From Crocosphaera sp. (GTDB lineage: Bacteria > Cyanobacteriota > Cyanobacteriia > Cyanobacteriales > Microcystaceae): DNA of 64,000 nucleotides. Both the position numbers and the translations under genes were made by a program. The stretch covers positions 1 to 64,000 of the forward strand of contig NZ_JASJEB010000002.1 of NCBI RefSeq assembly GCF_030064895.1. The letters are read 5' to 3'. The notes beneath the pieces are model-generated. The model saw nothing but the letters and a program-made list of their open reading frames with translations. It searched no databases and was not told the DNA's origin. Numbering within the stretch: position 1 is the stretch's first letter; the number at the start of each line of letters is the position of its first letter. Of the stretch, positions 3,280-27,288 are shown piece after piece.

Positions 3280-5133
3280 CTAGACTAAACTAGCCATTTT
3301 AATCTCATTGGTGCTTAAAATTTCTTGTAGTTCATCAGAGTCAACGGTTTCTTTTTGCACTAACATATCCGCTAAGGTATCCAAGATGTGACGGTTACTT
3401 TCTAAAACATCTTTAGCCCGCGCATAAGCAGTGTCTACCAGTCCGCGAACCTCTTCATCGATAGCAGAGGCGGTTTCGTTAGAAAAGTCCCTATCAGAGG
3501 CAATATCGCGCCCTAAGAAGACGTTTCCGTTTTGCCGTCCTAAAGCTACAGGTCCTAAGCGATCGCTCATTCCAAAGCGAGTGATCATCTGACGAGCAAC
3601 TCTGGCTACTTGTTGTAAGTCACTAGCAGCACCTGTGGTGACTTCTTCCTCACCGAAGATAATTTCTTCAGCAACACGGCCACCCAAGGCCACAGCCATT
3701 TGATTTTGTAGATAAGAGCGAGACATCAACCCGGACTCCATGCGATCTTCACTGGGAGTAAACCAAGTTAACCCACCAGCACGACCACGGGGAATAATAC
3801 TAATTTTCTGCACGGGATCGTAGTCAGGCATCAAAGCACCTACTAAAGCGTGACCGGCTTCATGGTAAGCAACTAAGGTCTTACGCTTCTCACTCATGAT
3901 CCGATTTTTCTTCTCAGGCCCTGCTAAAACGCGGTCTATGGCATCGTTGACCTCATCCATAGAAATTTCGGTCAAATTGCGACGAGCAGCTAAAATAGCA
4001 GCCTCATTTAAGAGGTTGGAGAGATCAGCACCGGTAAACCCAGGAGTACGACGGGCAATTTTATTGAGGTCTACGTCTTTAGAGAGGGTTTTGCCACGAG
4101 CATGAACTGTCAGGATTTCTTGACGACCAGCGTAGTCGGGACGATCAACCACTACTTGACGGTCAAAACGACCGGGACGTAATAAGGCTGCGTCTAAAAC
4201 ATCGGGACGGTTGGTAGCAGCGATGATAATGATGCCGGTATTGCCTTCAAACCCGTCCATCTCGGTTAAGAGTTGGTTGAGGGTTTGTTCCCGTTCATCG
4301 TTACCACCTCCTAAACCAGCACCCCGTTGACGACCAACTGCGTCGATCTCATCGATGAAAACGATACAAGGGGCGTTTGCTTTGGCCTGTTCAAATAAGT
4401 CACGGACACGAGATGCACCGACACCTACGAACATTTCCACAAACTCGGAACCAGAAATGCTGAAGAAAGGTACACCTGCTTCTCCGGCTACGGCTTTAGC
4501 TAAGAGGGTTTTACCTGTTCCAGGAGGCCCTACTAATAAGACTCCTTTGGGAATTTTGGCACCAATGGCGGTGAAGCGATCGGCGTTTTTCAGGAAGTCT
4601 ACAACTTCGGTAAGTTCTAGTTTAGCTTGTTCGATACCTGCTACATCCCCAAAAGTTACTTGGGTTTGGGGTTCCATTTGTACCCGTGCTTTTGATTTAC
4701 CAAAGTTCATGGCCTGGGAACCAGGGCCACTTTGCGCCCGACGTAACAAGAAGAATAATCCAACTAATAACAAAATGGGGAGGAATAGGCTGGTAGCTAC
4801 TCTGAACCAGACTCCCTCGTCGTTGGGGGGTTGGATGGCAATATCTACTTTGTTTTCGGACAGGATGTTGATTAAATCAGGATCGTTGGGGAGATTAACC
4901 AGTTGTGGTGCGCCACCTTCGGGGTTAGGCACTTTGGCTTGAGTGCGGTCAGAACTGAGTGTTACTCGATCCACTCGGTCGTTTTCTACACGGTCAATAA
5001 ACTCACTATAGGTTAATGTTTCGCGACTTTGAGTGTTATTGTTATCTAAAAAGGCTGATGCTAAAGCTAATACGACAATCAGCAAAAGTGCATATAGTCC
5101 AGCATTGCGCCATTTTTTGTTATTTTTGTTCAC
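3280..5133 (-). CDS. ftsH: ATP-dependent zinc metalloprotease FtsH (FtsH3-like)
   Basis: FtsH is a membrane-bound hexameric AAA+ protease that extracts and degrades damaged membrane proteins; in cyanobacteria FtsH complexes take part in photosystem II repair and in iron and carbon acclimation. The 617-residue protein has a first membrane helix at about 11-29, a periplasmic/lumenal FtsH_ext domain, a second helix at about 110-130, Walker A GPPGTGKT (202-209), Walker [10 protein letters not shown], the second region of homology ending RPGRFDR, and the zinc site HEAGH (424-428). The N-terminus resembles Synechocystis FtsH3 (Slr1604), the subunit common to the FtsH1/3 and FtsH2/3 complexes; that assignment is from memory. 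It is transcribed alone, with a strong terminator. Two apparent sRNA genes lie 180-510 bp upstream on the same strand. Confidence 0.97.
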
Positions 5134-5313
5134 GCTGTCGGCCTCTTATTATACTAAAGGGGAAGATAGGGTTATCTTTAAATATATCAAGGTTAATGAG
5201 CTAACCAGATGATAACGCCTGAAGATACAGGTATGGTTTTTCCGAGAAAAACACTTGTTAACTTATGTTAACGTTTCTCAGGAACTATTGACTAGGAATT
5301 TCTTGATTAATTC

Positions 5314-5392
5314 AAAAAAAATAGGGGAACCGCTATTTCTATTGCTGAACGATTCCACCTGCCGATCCATCCTTGAAAGGAGAACACTTATT
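5314..5392 (-). ncRNA. candidate small RNA, tandem copy 1
   Basis: An RNA of about 79 nt is predicted. It would start near 5392, 7 nt after a TATGAT box, and end in the T8 run at 5314-5321. Its 3' end is an intrinsic terminator: CGATTCC (5350-5356) pairs with GGAACCG (5326-5332) around a 17-nt loop and leads into CCCCTATTTTTTTT. The 5' half carries a pyrimidine-rich segment (TGTTCTCCTTTC), then AAGGATGGATCGGCAGG. The CU-rich segment could pair with Shine-Dalgarno sequences, as in several trans-acting sRNAs; that is inference. It does not show the GGAAACA loop of the Yfr2 family or the Yfr1 core. A nearly identical copy lies 212 bp upstream. Confidence 0.75.
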
Positions 5393-5398
5393 GATGCC

Positions 5399-5428
5399 AT
5401 CATATCTCTTATTGGAAATATTTGTCAA
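5399..5428 (-). promoter_or_regulatory. sigma70 promoter of sRNA copy 1
   Basis: On the minus strand TTGACA (5423-5428) and TATGAT (5399-5404) are separated by 18 bp. The -35 box is perfect consensus and the -10 box has one mismatch. Confidence 0.8.
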
Positions 5429-5529
5429 CAGTGATGAGAAAGTTTTTTAATAGCTCAGGACATAAGCACAGAAAACTAAGCTATTTGCAATAGTCAATTA
5501 TTTTTCGCAATCAGATTTTCAACAAAAAT

Positions 5530-5604
5530 AAAAAAGGGGAACCGCTATTTCTGTTGCTGAACGATTCCACCTGCCGATCCATCCTTGAGAGGAGAACACT
5601 TATT
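5530..5604 (-). ncRNA. candidate small RNA, tandem copy 2
   Basis: This is the second copy of the sRNA gene, about 75 nt, starting near 5604 and ending in the T6 run at 5530-5535. The terminator stem CGATTCC (5562-5568) / GGAACCG (5538-5544) is identical to copy 1. Differences are few: GAGAGG instead of GAAAGG, CTGTTG instead of CTATTG (terminator loop), and changes in the first nucleotides. The differences avoid the stem arms. Homology with copy 1 extends beyond the promoter to about 5660, so the whole transcription unit was duplicated. Both copies point toward ftsH, but the terminators make read-through unlikely. Confidence 0.75.
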
Positions 5605-5610
5605 GACTTC

Positions 5611-5640
5611 ATCATAGAGCTTATTAGTAATCTTTGTCAA
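5611..5640 (-). promoter_or_regulatory. sigma70 promoter of sRNA copy 2
   Basis: TTGACA (5635-5640) and TATGAT (5611-5616) on the minus strand with the same 18-bp spacing as copy 1, although the spacer sequence has diverged. The boxes are conserved while flanking bases are not. Confidence 0.8.
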
Positions 5641-5776
5641 TAGTAATGAGATATTTTTTCAATAATTTAAGAAATGGCCGTGATCATTATGGGATAGCTA
5701 ACAATCTCAAATATAGATTTGGTGGGAGGTTTGGGAGTAAGCAGTCGCTCAAAGGATAAGGCAGGGGGCAGGAGTA

Positions 5777-5894
5777 ATACTAAATCCGCTTTAGATAGTA
5801 GACAATCATCGTTCTGGAGCAGGGGAGGCAGGGGAGGCAGAGGAAGCAGGGAGAGAAAGAAGATTACTCTACGATAATAAGCGGATTTGGTATA
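5777..5894. repeat. MITE-like inverted-repeat element
   Basis: The left arm TACTAAATCCGCTT (about 5778-5791) and the right arm AAGCGGATTTGGTA (about 5879-5892) are inverted copies with one mismatch. The approximately 85-bp interior is a purine-rich GGGGAGGCA/GAGGAAGCA microrepeat. There is no ORF. Size and structure fit a non-autonomous miniature element. Confidence 0.4.
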
Positions 5895-5941: not shown

Positions 5942-7366
5942 TTACAGAGTTTTCAAATACTCTACTAAAGCCTGTTTCTCCTCAGAAGATAACTCGGTTC
6001 CATAAAGATGTCCCTTATTACTATTACCATCAAGAGTGGTATCGTATTTGAACCCTTCAGTTTCTGCTGTTGTACCCTCAGAAACAAAACCAACTTTATC
6101 AGGATTGTAAACATCATAGCCTCGATAAAATACTTTTGTTCTCTTTTCTGGAACTTCCAGAAGATCCCTTAAATAAGGTACAGAACCATTATGTAAATAA
6201 GGGGCCCTCAACCAAATACCATCCAGAGAAACTGCTATATATCCGTTTTGTTTCTGGACATGGGTAAAATCCCATGATTGGGCATCTCCTAATGCTAAAT
6301 ACTTATCAACCACTGCTTGGCTCCACATTTCAAGACGATGATCATCGGTTCCCACTTCTTCAATAGGGATAAAGCTTCCAGTGCGATCGCCTCCAAAAGC
6401 ATGACAGGAAGCACAGTTATTGTTAAAAATGGGCTTTCCTTTGGCCGCTAAAACGGCATCGATGGCAAAAGGATAATCAGGAGGAGGAATTAAACGAATG
6501 AAGTCTTCTACTCGTTGTAAGTCTTGGAGGGGTACATTGTCCGTTGGAGTTCCGGCTGCTAAGGCTCCCATAATAATAGTTTCGGTGAGATTGGTTTCTA
6601 ACCCATCCCAGTGATAGTCAAATCCTTTGTGTTGTCTTTCGTTCCAAATGGGGGGATCGTCAACATTATCGATGGTGTCATCTAAGGGGAGTCTAAACTG
6701 AACAAATTTTACAGGGTTAAACGAGGGTATTCGCCCTGGACCTGGATCTGGACGGGAGTTAGTCCAAGCAAAGGCCATTCCTAAACCCATTAAACTTTCT
6801 TGAGTTTGGGGAATAATCAGGTAACGATACAAGAGTTTATCTGACCAGGACAAAGGGTGTTTGGCTTCGATCGCTGGTATTAGGTTGTCTGGGGTAAACT
6901 TGGGATCGTTGCCACAAGCTGCTAAAAAACGAATATTAGCTACAGAATCAAAGGTTTGAGTTGGGGCCCCTAAAACGAGGTTTGGGCTATCTTGAGGGCT
7001 TTTACGATAGGTTGTACTATGACACAGTGCGCAGGTCGATCCCTGACGGGGAAAACCGACAATGGTTTTGGAAACGCCGACGGGCATTTCTTGGCCTTTT
7101 TCCCAAATAAATCCTAGAGATTTATAACCTCCAGGCCCGGGTAAATGTTCTGCAAATAAATCTGGTAATACTTCCCAAATGAAGAAAGGAACACCTCCAG
7201 AATTGATAGAACCATATTTGAAATGATCCTCTGCTGATTTATAAACAATAGGAACTTCTCGCTTAAAATTGTACCAAACAAAATAATTAGCCCCTCCTAT
7301 GATTAATAAGGTAAGGAGTAGGAGAATGATGAGAATTTTTGCGAATTTATTGTTAACTAAGATCAT
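5942..7366 (-). CDS. membrane-anchored di-heme cytochrome c, peroxidase/RoxA-like
   Basis: This 474-residue protein has one N-terminal membrane helix (about 9-31) with a large soluble domain outside the cytoplasm. Two c-type heme sites are present: CALCH (112-116) and CASCH (318-322). Spacing, length and motifs such as RAPYLHNGSVP and the C-terminal SSEEKQALVEYLKTL fit the di-heme cytochrome c peroxidase superfamily, in particular the long branch that includes RoxA-like proteins. Substrate and partners are unknown; peroxide reduction or oxidation of a hydrophobic substrate are both possible. It appears monocistronic. Confidence 0.85.
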   Translation of the reverse strand: MILVNNKFAKILIILLLLTLLIIGGANYFVWYNFKREVPIVYKSAEDHFKYGSINSGGVPFFIWEVLPDLFAEHLPGPGGYKSLGFIWEKGQEMPVGVSKTIVGFPRQGSTCALCHSTTYRKSPQDSPNLVLGAPTQTFDSVANIRFLAACGNDPKFTPDNLIPAIEAKHPLSWSDKLLYRYLIIPQTQESLMGLGMAFAWTNSRPDPGPGRIPSFNPVKFVQFRLPLDDTIDNVDDPPIWNERQHKGFDYHWDGLETNLTETIIMGALAAGTPTDNVPLQDLQRVEDFIRLIPPPDYPFAIDAVLAAKGKPIFNNNCASCHAFGGDRTGSFIPIEEVGTDDHRLEMWSQAVVDKYLALGDAQSWDFTHVQKQNGYIAVSLDGIWLRAPYLHNGSVPYLRDLLEVPEKRTKVFYRGYDVYNPDKVGFVSEGTTAETEGFKYDTTLDGNSNKGHLYGTELSSEEKQALVEYLKTL

Positions 7367-25220: not shown

Positions 25221-25404
25221 GAAATTTTATTGATTAAGTTTTGTTTGATTTTATGAAAGCTAATAGGGTAACAAAGATAAACTTTAAAAGTTAGGTTAAG
25301 GAATAAAAAATACCAAATATTACTAAATCAAGGGTCGTGAATGGTTAAAAATATCGACTAAAAATGGTCTGAAATCAACAATTTTTAATTATTAATTTTA
25401 AAGT

Positions 25405-27288
25405 CTAGCTCTTTATTTTATAACCTCTTTTTTGACAACTAATCGCCCTTTTCCATAATTCCTCACTGGACAGGTTATTGTCAATAGCTTGTGCAAGTTC
25501 CTCTTTTATCTCCTGCCAAGCATCAGACGATGGCATAGCTTCAGAAACCCCCATAATCTTAGGATGCTCGGTGTCAAAGGCTTTTTCACTATCATTAACC
25601 AATGATTCATGGAGTTTTTCCCCTGGACGACAACCAACAATCTTAATAGGAATATCTTTCTCAGGAATAAAACCAGCTAATTCAATCATCCGTTGTGCTA
25701 AATCGTAGATTTTTACTGGTTCCCCCATGTCTAAAATTAAAATCTGTCCTGATTTACCCACCGCTAAACTCTGAATAACCAATTGAGAAGCTTCAGGTGT
25801 GGTCATAAAGTAACGAGTCATATCTCGATGTGTCACTGTCAACGGACCACCTCTGGCGATTTGCTCTTTAAAAATAGGGACTACACTACCACGACTACCT
25901 AAGACATTACCAAAGCGCACAATCAAAAAGCGAGTTTCACTTTTAACTGATAGAGATTTAACCGTTAACTCGGCTAAACGTTTGCTCAATCCCATAAAAT
26001 TTGTGGAATTCACTGCTTTATCTGTGGAAATCATCACAAACGTTTTAACACCGTATTCAGCCGCTAATTGTGCTAGATTACCCGTGCCAAACACATTGTT
26101 TTCCAGGGATTCGGTGGGATTTTCCTGCATCAAAGGAACGTGCTTATGAGCGGCGGCATGAAAAACTAATTCTGGTTGCCAGATTCTAAAAACTGTATCC
26201 ATCCGTTGTTTATGGCGAATATCGGCAATAATTGTTACCGTGTCCAACTCAGGAAAAAGACGACCTAACTCCTGTTTAATTTTAAAAATACTATTTTCAC
26301 CCCTTCCCAACAGTAGTAGGGTTTTGGGCTTTAATCGAGCCAGTTGACGGCAAATCTCGGAGCCAATAGTTCCTCCTGCTCCTGTGACTAAAACACGACT
26401 TTCAAAAACCTGTTCGTAAGCAGAGGGAAATTGACCGTTAAATTCTTCCCTAAAATCGAGAATAACCTCCGGTCTTCCTAGAATATCTTGGATTTGAATG
26501 TCTCTTACTTGATTAGTGAACGGTGTATCCGTTAATATCTCTGGTCTTCCAGGTAGCACTTTTAGTTTAAAAGGCATTCCTTGGGTAGCTTCAACGATAT
26601 TACAAATCTTCTCATTGCTGGCAGAAGGCATGGCAACAATAACTTCTTCAATCTGGTAAGCTTCGGCTAACTTGTTAATCTCAGAAATCTTGCCTAAAAC
26701 CTTAATTCCTTCAATTTTTCTGCCAATTTTGCTGCTATCGTCATCGAGAAATCCCATCACAGTTAACGGAGAATAAGGGTTTAGTTGTATTTCCTGGACA
26801 ATTTTAGAACCAGAATATCCAGCACCAATCACCAGAACCCGACGTTTTTTGCTGGAACTTTGATAAGGACTGACTGTCAATTTTTGTTTGTACCATCGCC
26901 TAGCAAGTCTTAAACCGGCCATTGCCAATAAACAAAGACTCCAATCAATCACGGCAACACCCAAAGGTATGCCAACAAAAGAAAGATAAATTTGAGGAAT
27001 AATAAGGCGAGTGATGATAAAAATAGAGACTGAATAAACTGTTACCGAATACAACAGTCTTATACCATCTTTTAATCCAAATAAACGCCAAATTTGTTGA
27101 TATAAACCAAAAACTGTCTGGGTTCCAAGACGACCGATAATAGCAATCCCAGGAAGTATGATGGCTAAACTTTCATGGGTGGGGGCTACATCTCCCTCAA
27201 AGCGGATTAAATAAGCCAAATAACAGGATAAAAAAGCAACAGCACCATCTAAAAAAAATTGACCTAGCCGATATATATGTTTACTCAT
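25405..27288 (-). CDS. membrane nucleotide-sugar 4,6-dehydratase (WbpM/CapD family)
   Basis: The 627-residue enzyme has four N-terminal membrane helices (within 1-130), a CoA-binding-like Rossmann domain (VLVIGAGYSGSKIV, about 151) and a catalytic SDR domain starting at VLVTGAGGTIGSEI (about 299). The active site shows ISTDKAVNSTNFMGLSKRLAE, i.e. Met-x3-Lys instead of Tyr-x3-Lys, the SMK variant typical of large WbpM-type enzymes. It should convert UDP-GlcNAc to UDP-4-keto-6-deoxy-GlcNAc, feeding the WbpK/V-like reductase at 13530-14507. Confidence 0.92.
   Translation of the reverse strand: MSKHIYRLGQFFLDGAVAFLSCYLAYLIRFEGDVAPTHESLAIILPGIAIIGRLGTQTVFGLYQQIWRLFGLKDGIRLLYSVTVYSVSIFIITRLIIPQIYLSFVGIPLGVAVIDWSLCLLAMAGLRLARRWYKQKLTVSPYQSSSKKRRVLVIGAGYSGSKIVQEIQLNPYSPLTVMGFLDDDSSKIGRKIEGIKVLGKISEINKLAEAYQIEEVIVAMPSASNEKICNIVEATQGMPFKLKVLPGRPEILTDTPFTNQVRDIQIQDILGRPEVILDFREEFNGQFPSAYEQVFESRVLVTGAGGTIGSEICRQLARLKPKTLLLLGRGENSIFKIKQELGRLFPELDTVTIIADIRHKQRMDTVFRIWQPELVFHAAAHKHVPLMQENPTESLENNVFGTGNLAQLAAEYGVKTFVMISTDKAVNSTNFMGLSKRLAELTVKSLSVKSETRFLIVRFGNVLGSRGSVVPIFKEQIARGGPLTVTHRDMTRYFMTTPEASQLVIQSLAVGKSGQILILDMGEPVKIYDLAQRMIELAGFIPEKDIPIKIVGCRPGEKLHESLVNDSEKAFDTEHPKIMGVSEAMPSSDAWQEIKEELAQAIDNNLSSEELWKRAISCQKRGYKIKS

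Follow-up and report, generated by a model that had tools for sequence, protein, structure and literature searches.

A tandem pair of small-RNA genes upstream of ftsH in Crocosphaera sp., probably a lineage-specific duplication of isaR1

IsaR1 is an iron-starvation small RNA (sRNA) of Synechocystis. Table 3 of PMC6202907 gives it for Synechocystis 6803 as a 68-nt RNA with a transcription start at 3164320, and a comparison of Synechocystis 6714 with 6803 ranks it as the non-coding unit most strongly induced by iron depletion (PMC5386190). It is reported to repress sufBCDS (PMC12090762), while the targets named in PMC7247011 are sufBCD, cytochrome b6f and ferredoxin 1; acnB (PMC7336809) and ggpS (PMC6753628) are also reported to be under its control. 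Regulation by Fur is stated in general terms in one passage of PMC12090762, which includes IsaR1 among its references. In Pseudomonas aeruginosa, PrrF1 and PrrF2 are described as two tandem iron-starvation sRNAs that spare iron (PMC10597452), and both tandem sRNAs also appear in the title of Wilderman 2004, as cited.

The locus described here lies in a window of 64 kb, the whole stretch of DNA that was analysed, on contig 18 (103,894 bp) of a 5.5-Mb draft genome of 188 contigs. An earlier note on this DNA had proposed a tandem-duplicated small-RNA gene upstream of ftsH. The duplication is borne out by direct repeats at 5314-5463 and 5526-5675, each 150 nt long, with a period of 212 bp and 85% identity. 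Both sRNA units are encoded on the minus strand, in the transcription order copy B, copy A, ftsH, all codirectional, and the FtsH encoded in the window is probably of the FtsH3 type. The other flank is formed by a di-heme cytochrome c peroxidase-like gene at 5942-7366; between this gene and copy B, a 26-nt inverted repeat (5777-5802 and 5868-5893) is 81% complementary. The features of the locus are the following:

5316..5392, minus strand: sRNA copy A, IsaR1-like, about 77 nt, nearer ftsH (covariance-model match 5315-5389, E 8.3e-22)
5527..5604, minus strand: sRNA copy B, IsaR1-like, about 78 nt (covariance-model match 5527-5601, E 7.5e-22)
5399..5428, minus strand (read 5428-5399): predicted promoter of copy A, TTGACA-N18-TATGAT
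5611..5640, minus strand (read 5640-5611): predicted promoter of copy B, TTGACA-N18-TATGAT
5323..5360, minus strand: predicted terminator, 3' hairpin of copy A (folding, and helix covariation in 42 distinct homologues)
5535..5572, minus strand: predicted terminator, 3' hairpin of copy B (folding, and helix covariation in 42 distinct homologues)
3280..5133, minus strand: ftsH, downstream codirectional neighbour, given as context and not as part of the units (TIGR01241, 841.7 bits)

Since the genome is a draft in 188 contigs, the repeat might be suspected of being an assembly artefact, or of never being transcribed. However, the copies differ at about 15% of positions, they lie inside a 103,894-bp contig, and conservation of the RNA extends over hundreds of genomes, so that the probability of such an explanation is practically negligible.

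The two promoters proposed in the earlier note fit 11 of 12 consensus positions each. The predicted 5' ends, placed from the -10 box, fall at 5392 (copy A) and 5604 (copy B), and the resulting RNAs of about 77 nt agree with the 75-79 nt expected. In both RNAs the 3' end folds into a hairpin of twelve pairs followed by a T-rich run, in keeping with the proposed terminators, although a simple terminator scan listed neither hairpin. The whole RNAs have folding energies of -18.6 (A) and -18.4 (B) kcal/mol, with z-scores of only -1.48 and -1.02; folding energy by itself is therefore no proof of an RNA. A stronger sign comes from the comparison of the copies, which are identical at 73 of 77 positions in the RNA vs 41 of 67 in the promoter flanks outside the two boxes (Fisher p = 7e-7). 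Both RNAs have thus been held while their surroundings drifted, as the earlier suggestion of selection implied. A protein-coding reading of the units was set aside: stops interrupt frame 0 in A as well as B, the only stop of frame 2 is its first codon, and frame 1 is open with an ATG within GGATGG, but the other lineages, which have GGATCGG there, lack this ATG.

Our comparative analysis places the units in a widespread cyanobacterial family, so that the RNA is not a new one. A BLASTN search with a 96-nt query gave hits in 36 of 98 genomes, the own genome included, and a covariance model built from 26 sequences, a search of the sort recommended in the earlier note, recognised 263 of the 388 genomes in the order sample (own included) and 137 of 388 of the class, the two samples overlapping. 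In the order sample, two copies were found in the window's genome and one in each of the other 262 matching genomes, with the limit that filters were stricter in searches of more than 40 genomes, so that weak second copies may be missed. Two genomes of the class sample (G437 and G477) also have two matches each, on different contigs, the second being weaker. All five Synechocystis genomes examined, among them Synechocystis salina LEGE 00031 (L082), contain one match each, with lengths of 64, 64, 64, 72 and 75 nt. One Crocosphaera genome (G007; 6.2 Mb, 99% complete) gave no sRNA match even at E 0.1.

The structure is conserved across 42 distinct homologues, where 95% of paired cells are standard pairs and 54 cells have changed on both sides, vs 15.6 +/- 4.4 in shuffles (0 of 500 as high), in an alignment that was fitted to the tested structure. 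Shifting the pairing by 1-3 columns lowers the standard pairs to 38-55%, and the 3' hairpin holds six of the seven pairs with double changes. The block GTGTTCTCCT is invariant across the 26-row alignment, whereas the five Synechocystis copies read GTGTTCTCTT at that place. A GGAU insertion in the linker is common to the window copies, those from elsewhere in Crocosphaera and two further genera within the family (L011 and L012); in the second of these (L012, from G010), the RNA begins with AATAAGTGTTCTAAGTGTTCTCC, in which the seed shows a short internal duplication. Copy B carries the usual seed CUCCUCUCAAGG, and copy A reads CUCCUUUCAAGG, a change found in a single row among the 26 of alignment A1. 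A scan of the 64 kb against the Rfam copy searched returned no match at gathering score, and a scan of 5250-5720 returned a single miRNA match with E 0.72, below its gathering score. The lack of likeness to Yfr1 and Yfr2 that had been remarked upon agrees with the Rfam result for the window.

Conservation extends into the promoters. The earlier note had described the spacers as diverged, and only 12 of 18 spacer positions are indeed identical between A and B; what that description missed is a conserved half-site, ATTnTnAATAAG, which completes a palindrome with the -35 box in 44 distinct promoters anchored on that box. In this alignment, from which L012 and L027 were dropped and in which a few promoters (L013, L029 and L069) look misanchored, the strongest symmetry centre is found 8 bp downstream of the initial T of TTGACA (0.64 vs 0.32 +/- 0.08 for all centres). 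The motif was condensed to TTGAnAATnATTnTCAA, a 7-1-7 inverted repeat that resembles the E. coli Fur box and Zur boxes as well. The corresponding sites in the window are:

5412..5428, minus strand: TTGACAAATATTTCCAA, Fur-box-like palindrome spanning -35 box and spacer in copy A, with 2 mismatches to TTGAnAATnATTnTCAA
5624..5640, minus strand: TTGACAAAGATTACTAA, Fur-box-like palindrome spanning -35 box and spacer in copy B, with 3 mismatches
5434..5450, minus strand: TTAAAAAACTTTCTCAT, a weak second Fur-box-like site (4 mismatches) lying 22 bp upstream in copy A
5646..5662, minus strand: TTGAAAAAATATCTCAT, a weak second Fur-box-like site (4 mismatches) lying 22 bp upstream in copy B

A TTG-starting site with at most 3 mismatches occurs in 45 of 47 promoters vs a background of 2.6e-4 per position in the flanks, a contrast to be read with the motif's origin in mind, since it was read off the same promoters that it scores and is formed in part by the -35 box. 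Of those 45 promoters, about a dozen have the upstream site as the one found. Between 90 and 45 nt before the seed, 30 of 47 promoters have a site with at most 3 mismatches, mostly about 22 bp above the -35 site; these upstream sites have 0-2 mismatches in the other seven Crocosphaera copies vs 4 in both window copies. The motif is not rare, with 26 matches of at most 3 mismatches in the window vs 16.7 expected. Genome-wide, 30 places match with at most 1 mismatch vs 7 for the reversed pattern, but the search gave no pointer to iron genes: 12 of the 15 places inspected lie inside ORFs, and it therefore shows no Fur regulon. The promoters of the family carry Fur-box-like palindromes, which are candidate Fur sites.

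The CU-rich 5' segment, which had been thought fit to target Shine-Dalgarno sequences, is predicted to pair with ribosome-binding regions of sufB and ferredoxin mRNAs. Pairing was scored by RNAduplex, which ignores folding within each RNA, and four sRNA forms stood for all genomes in the sufB and ferredoxin tests. The sufB gene was found in 28 genomes; G001 (cut by a contig end) and G006 (no upstream sequence) were left out and the window's genome was counted twice, with A and with B, giving 27 tests. In 25 of them the sufB start region ranked in the best 5% when set against 242 control windows at ORF starts, the failures being G131 and G032. The sufB leader of the own genome and of others has GGAGAACAC directly before ATGAGTGC, complementary to the sRNA 5' end GUGUUCUCC, and often, farther upstream, a CTGCCATCC-like block that matches the GGAUCGGCAG part of the sRNA by complementarity; the exact GAGAACAC occurs in 19 of 26 tested sufB loci. 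One SufB gene (G012 C46:4940-7399; L211 and L212) is found in two parts about 1.1 kb apart within one open frame of 857 aa, an intein-like arrangement.

The sufB complementarity is rarer in genomes without a detected sRNA. Against the 25 of 27 tests in genomes with the sRNA, sufB reaches the best 5% in 3 of 18 genomes without an sRNA match when the consensus sRNA is used (Fisher p = 2.6e-7), and in 6 of 18 when the best-scoring of three sRNA forms is taken (p = 4e-5); these p-values are generous because the genomes are related. The absence of the sRNA was rechecked with looser filters in 12 of the 18 genomes and rests on the stricter search in 6. All six sRNA-less genomes with sufB pairing (G007, G015, G024, G028, G033 and G039) come from the window's own family, and G007 keeps GGAGAACACA before sufB.

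For ferredoxin, 22 of 30 fetched loci gave 24 tests, of which 14 reached the best 5% relative to the 242 control windows, with at least one such gene in 13 of 17 genomes. The ten failures take in every gene tested from G001, G005, G006 and G014 and a single gene each from G003 and from G018; in the own genome, one gene of the two failed with copy A as well as with copy B. Among the eight loci outside the tests, L164, L165 and L166 had at most 4 of 100 shuffled sRNAs scoring as well, and the other five did not. The own ferredoxin genes are two adjacent plant-type genes in tandem (G000 C155:24838-25131 and 25247-25540; L147 and L157), only one of which shows strong predicted pairing; similar tandem pairs occur in G003, G005 and G006. 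Pairing with acnB is not supported: it ranked in the best 5% in 4 of 23 tests (22 loci, G006 being omitted because its gene is cut) vs 400 random windows, with the consensus sRNA used for G081, G086, G103, G131 and G069.

Taken together, the family is most likely IsaR1, a name assigned by published description because size, presence in Synechocystis, promoter type and the two main target groups fit. The homologues of 64-75 nt in Synechocystis bracket the published 68 nt, and the window RNAs measure about 77-78 nt; there is one homologue per Synechocystis genome, with a Fur-type promoter motif and complementarity to the start regions of sufB and ferredoxin. Unlike IsaR1 of Synechocystis, the window has two tandem copies, a position upstream of ftsH and the GGAU linker insertion. 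Another conserved cyanobacterial sRNA that shares the targets of IsaR1 and is distinct from it would be compatible with a likeness drawn from description rather than direct sequence alignment, with the weak acnB complementarity and with the absence of Rfam matches. Even so, the single copy in five of five Synechocystis genomes, the length, the Fur-type motif and two published target groups all agree with IsaR1, which makes a distinct sRNA improbable.

PsrR1, a high-light sRNA acting on photosynthesis mRNAs, would offer a different identity, with expression driven by RpaB instead of Fur. It resembles the family in being conserved in cyanobacteria and in binding ribosome-binding regions (PMC6202907), and ChlB is encoded close to the locus within the window while chlN is listed as a PsrR1 target in the same source. 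Nonetheless, PsrR1 measures 131 nt in Synechocystis 6803 and S. elongatus, as opposed to 64-78 nt here; it has other published targets and responds to light, whereas conserved complementarity here falls on the start regions of sufB and ferredoxin, both reported as targets of IsaR1, and the promoter motif is an inverted repeat. PsrR1, set apart in this way by its published description, was rejected on length and on the targets found, and is very improbable.

Within the IsaR1 reading, one copy could be a decaying duplicate, only the other being transcribed. The seed change of copy A and the upstream boxes of both copies, weaker than in the other seven Crocosphaera copies, would suit such decay. 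On the other hand, both copies keep their promoter boxes, identity in the RNA far exceeds that in the flanks, and the predicted energies of A and B are alike for sufB (-27.6 and -28.1) and for the better ferredoxin gene (-28.6 and -28.0), so that the seed change of A predicts no different specificity for these targets. A decaying copy is accordingly regarded as rather unlikely, and transcription of both copies is the reading that we infer from the sequence.

The position upstream of ftsH holds for the window and is not the usual one. A crtH-like ORF lies beside the sRNA in 26 of 47 homologous loci (tblastn, flanks up to about 1.5 kb), all of them among the 40 loci outside Crocosphaera and including four of five in Synechocystis; this ORF is 83% identical to L089, the match of the own genome to TIGR02730 (carotene isomerase). 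In Synechocystis 6803, isaR1 adjoins sll0033 (crtH). This ftsH accompanies the sRNA in 4 of the 47 loci (L006-L009), all from Crocosphaera, and in none of the 40 loci outside the genus within flanks of about 1.5 kb. Neither neighbour was found in 17 of the 47, ten of which belong to one genus (g7); three more Crocosphaera loci (L004, L005 and L010) have neither, and their larger stretches (L085, L083 and L080) likewise contain no ftsH. In five Crocosphaera genomes, the own one included, the sRNA lies ahead of ftsH in place of the usual position next to a crtH-like gene, and the own crtH locus (L089) holds no sRNA-like seed within 3 mismatches. The tree joins A and B as sisters (support 0.876), with G006 as their neighbour, which indicates that the duplication arose in this lineage, and their divergence of about 17% indicates that it is not very recent. 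No tandem isaR1 was found in print by a literature search that covered mainly freely available papers. The RNA and its logic are already known; the tandem duplication and the place upstream of ftsH in five Crocosphaera genomes are new.

We consider it probable, at roughly 0.87, that the units are a lineage-specific tandem duplication of isaR1, repressed by Fur, with both copies on in low iron and sparing iron through sufB and ferredoxin. The duplication, the family, its conserved structure, the palindromes and the conserved target complementarity were computed here. When iron is plentiful, Fur bound to the -35/spacer palindromes, and perhaps to the upstream ones, would hold both copies silent. 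Under iron shortage, the two would be transcribed as RNAs of about 77 nt, whose 5' segment GUGUUCUCCUYUCAAGGAU may pair with the ribosome-binding sites of mRNAs such as those of sufB and ferredoxin; this pairing would stop translation and iron would be spared. The simplest role of two copies would be a higher dose.

A more elaborate scheme would wire the locus to ftsH. FtsH1/FtsH3 are reported to degrade Fur in iron deficiency (PMC7247011), and Fur-controlled read-through could raise FtsH in low iron, FtsH helping to degrade Fur, as a self-reinforcing low-iron switch; read-through from B into A would give a joint RNA like PrrH, and the loss in G007 and the doubling here would mark different iron niches. 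Such wiring is a long shot.

In their logic, the tandem units may be likened to PrrF1/PrrF2, which share the near-identical tandem copies and the iron-sparing purpose. The alignment, the covariance model and the target co-occurrence describe an RNA family that has no match in the Rfam copy searched. Iron limits nitrogen-fixing cyanobacteria, and a cyanobacterial counterpart of PrrF1/PrrF2 would offer a natural way to test why iron-sparing RNAs are doubled in bacteria.
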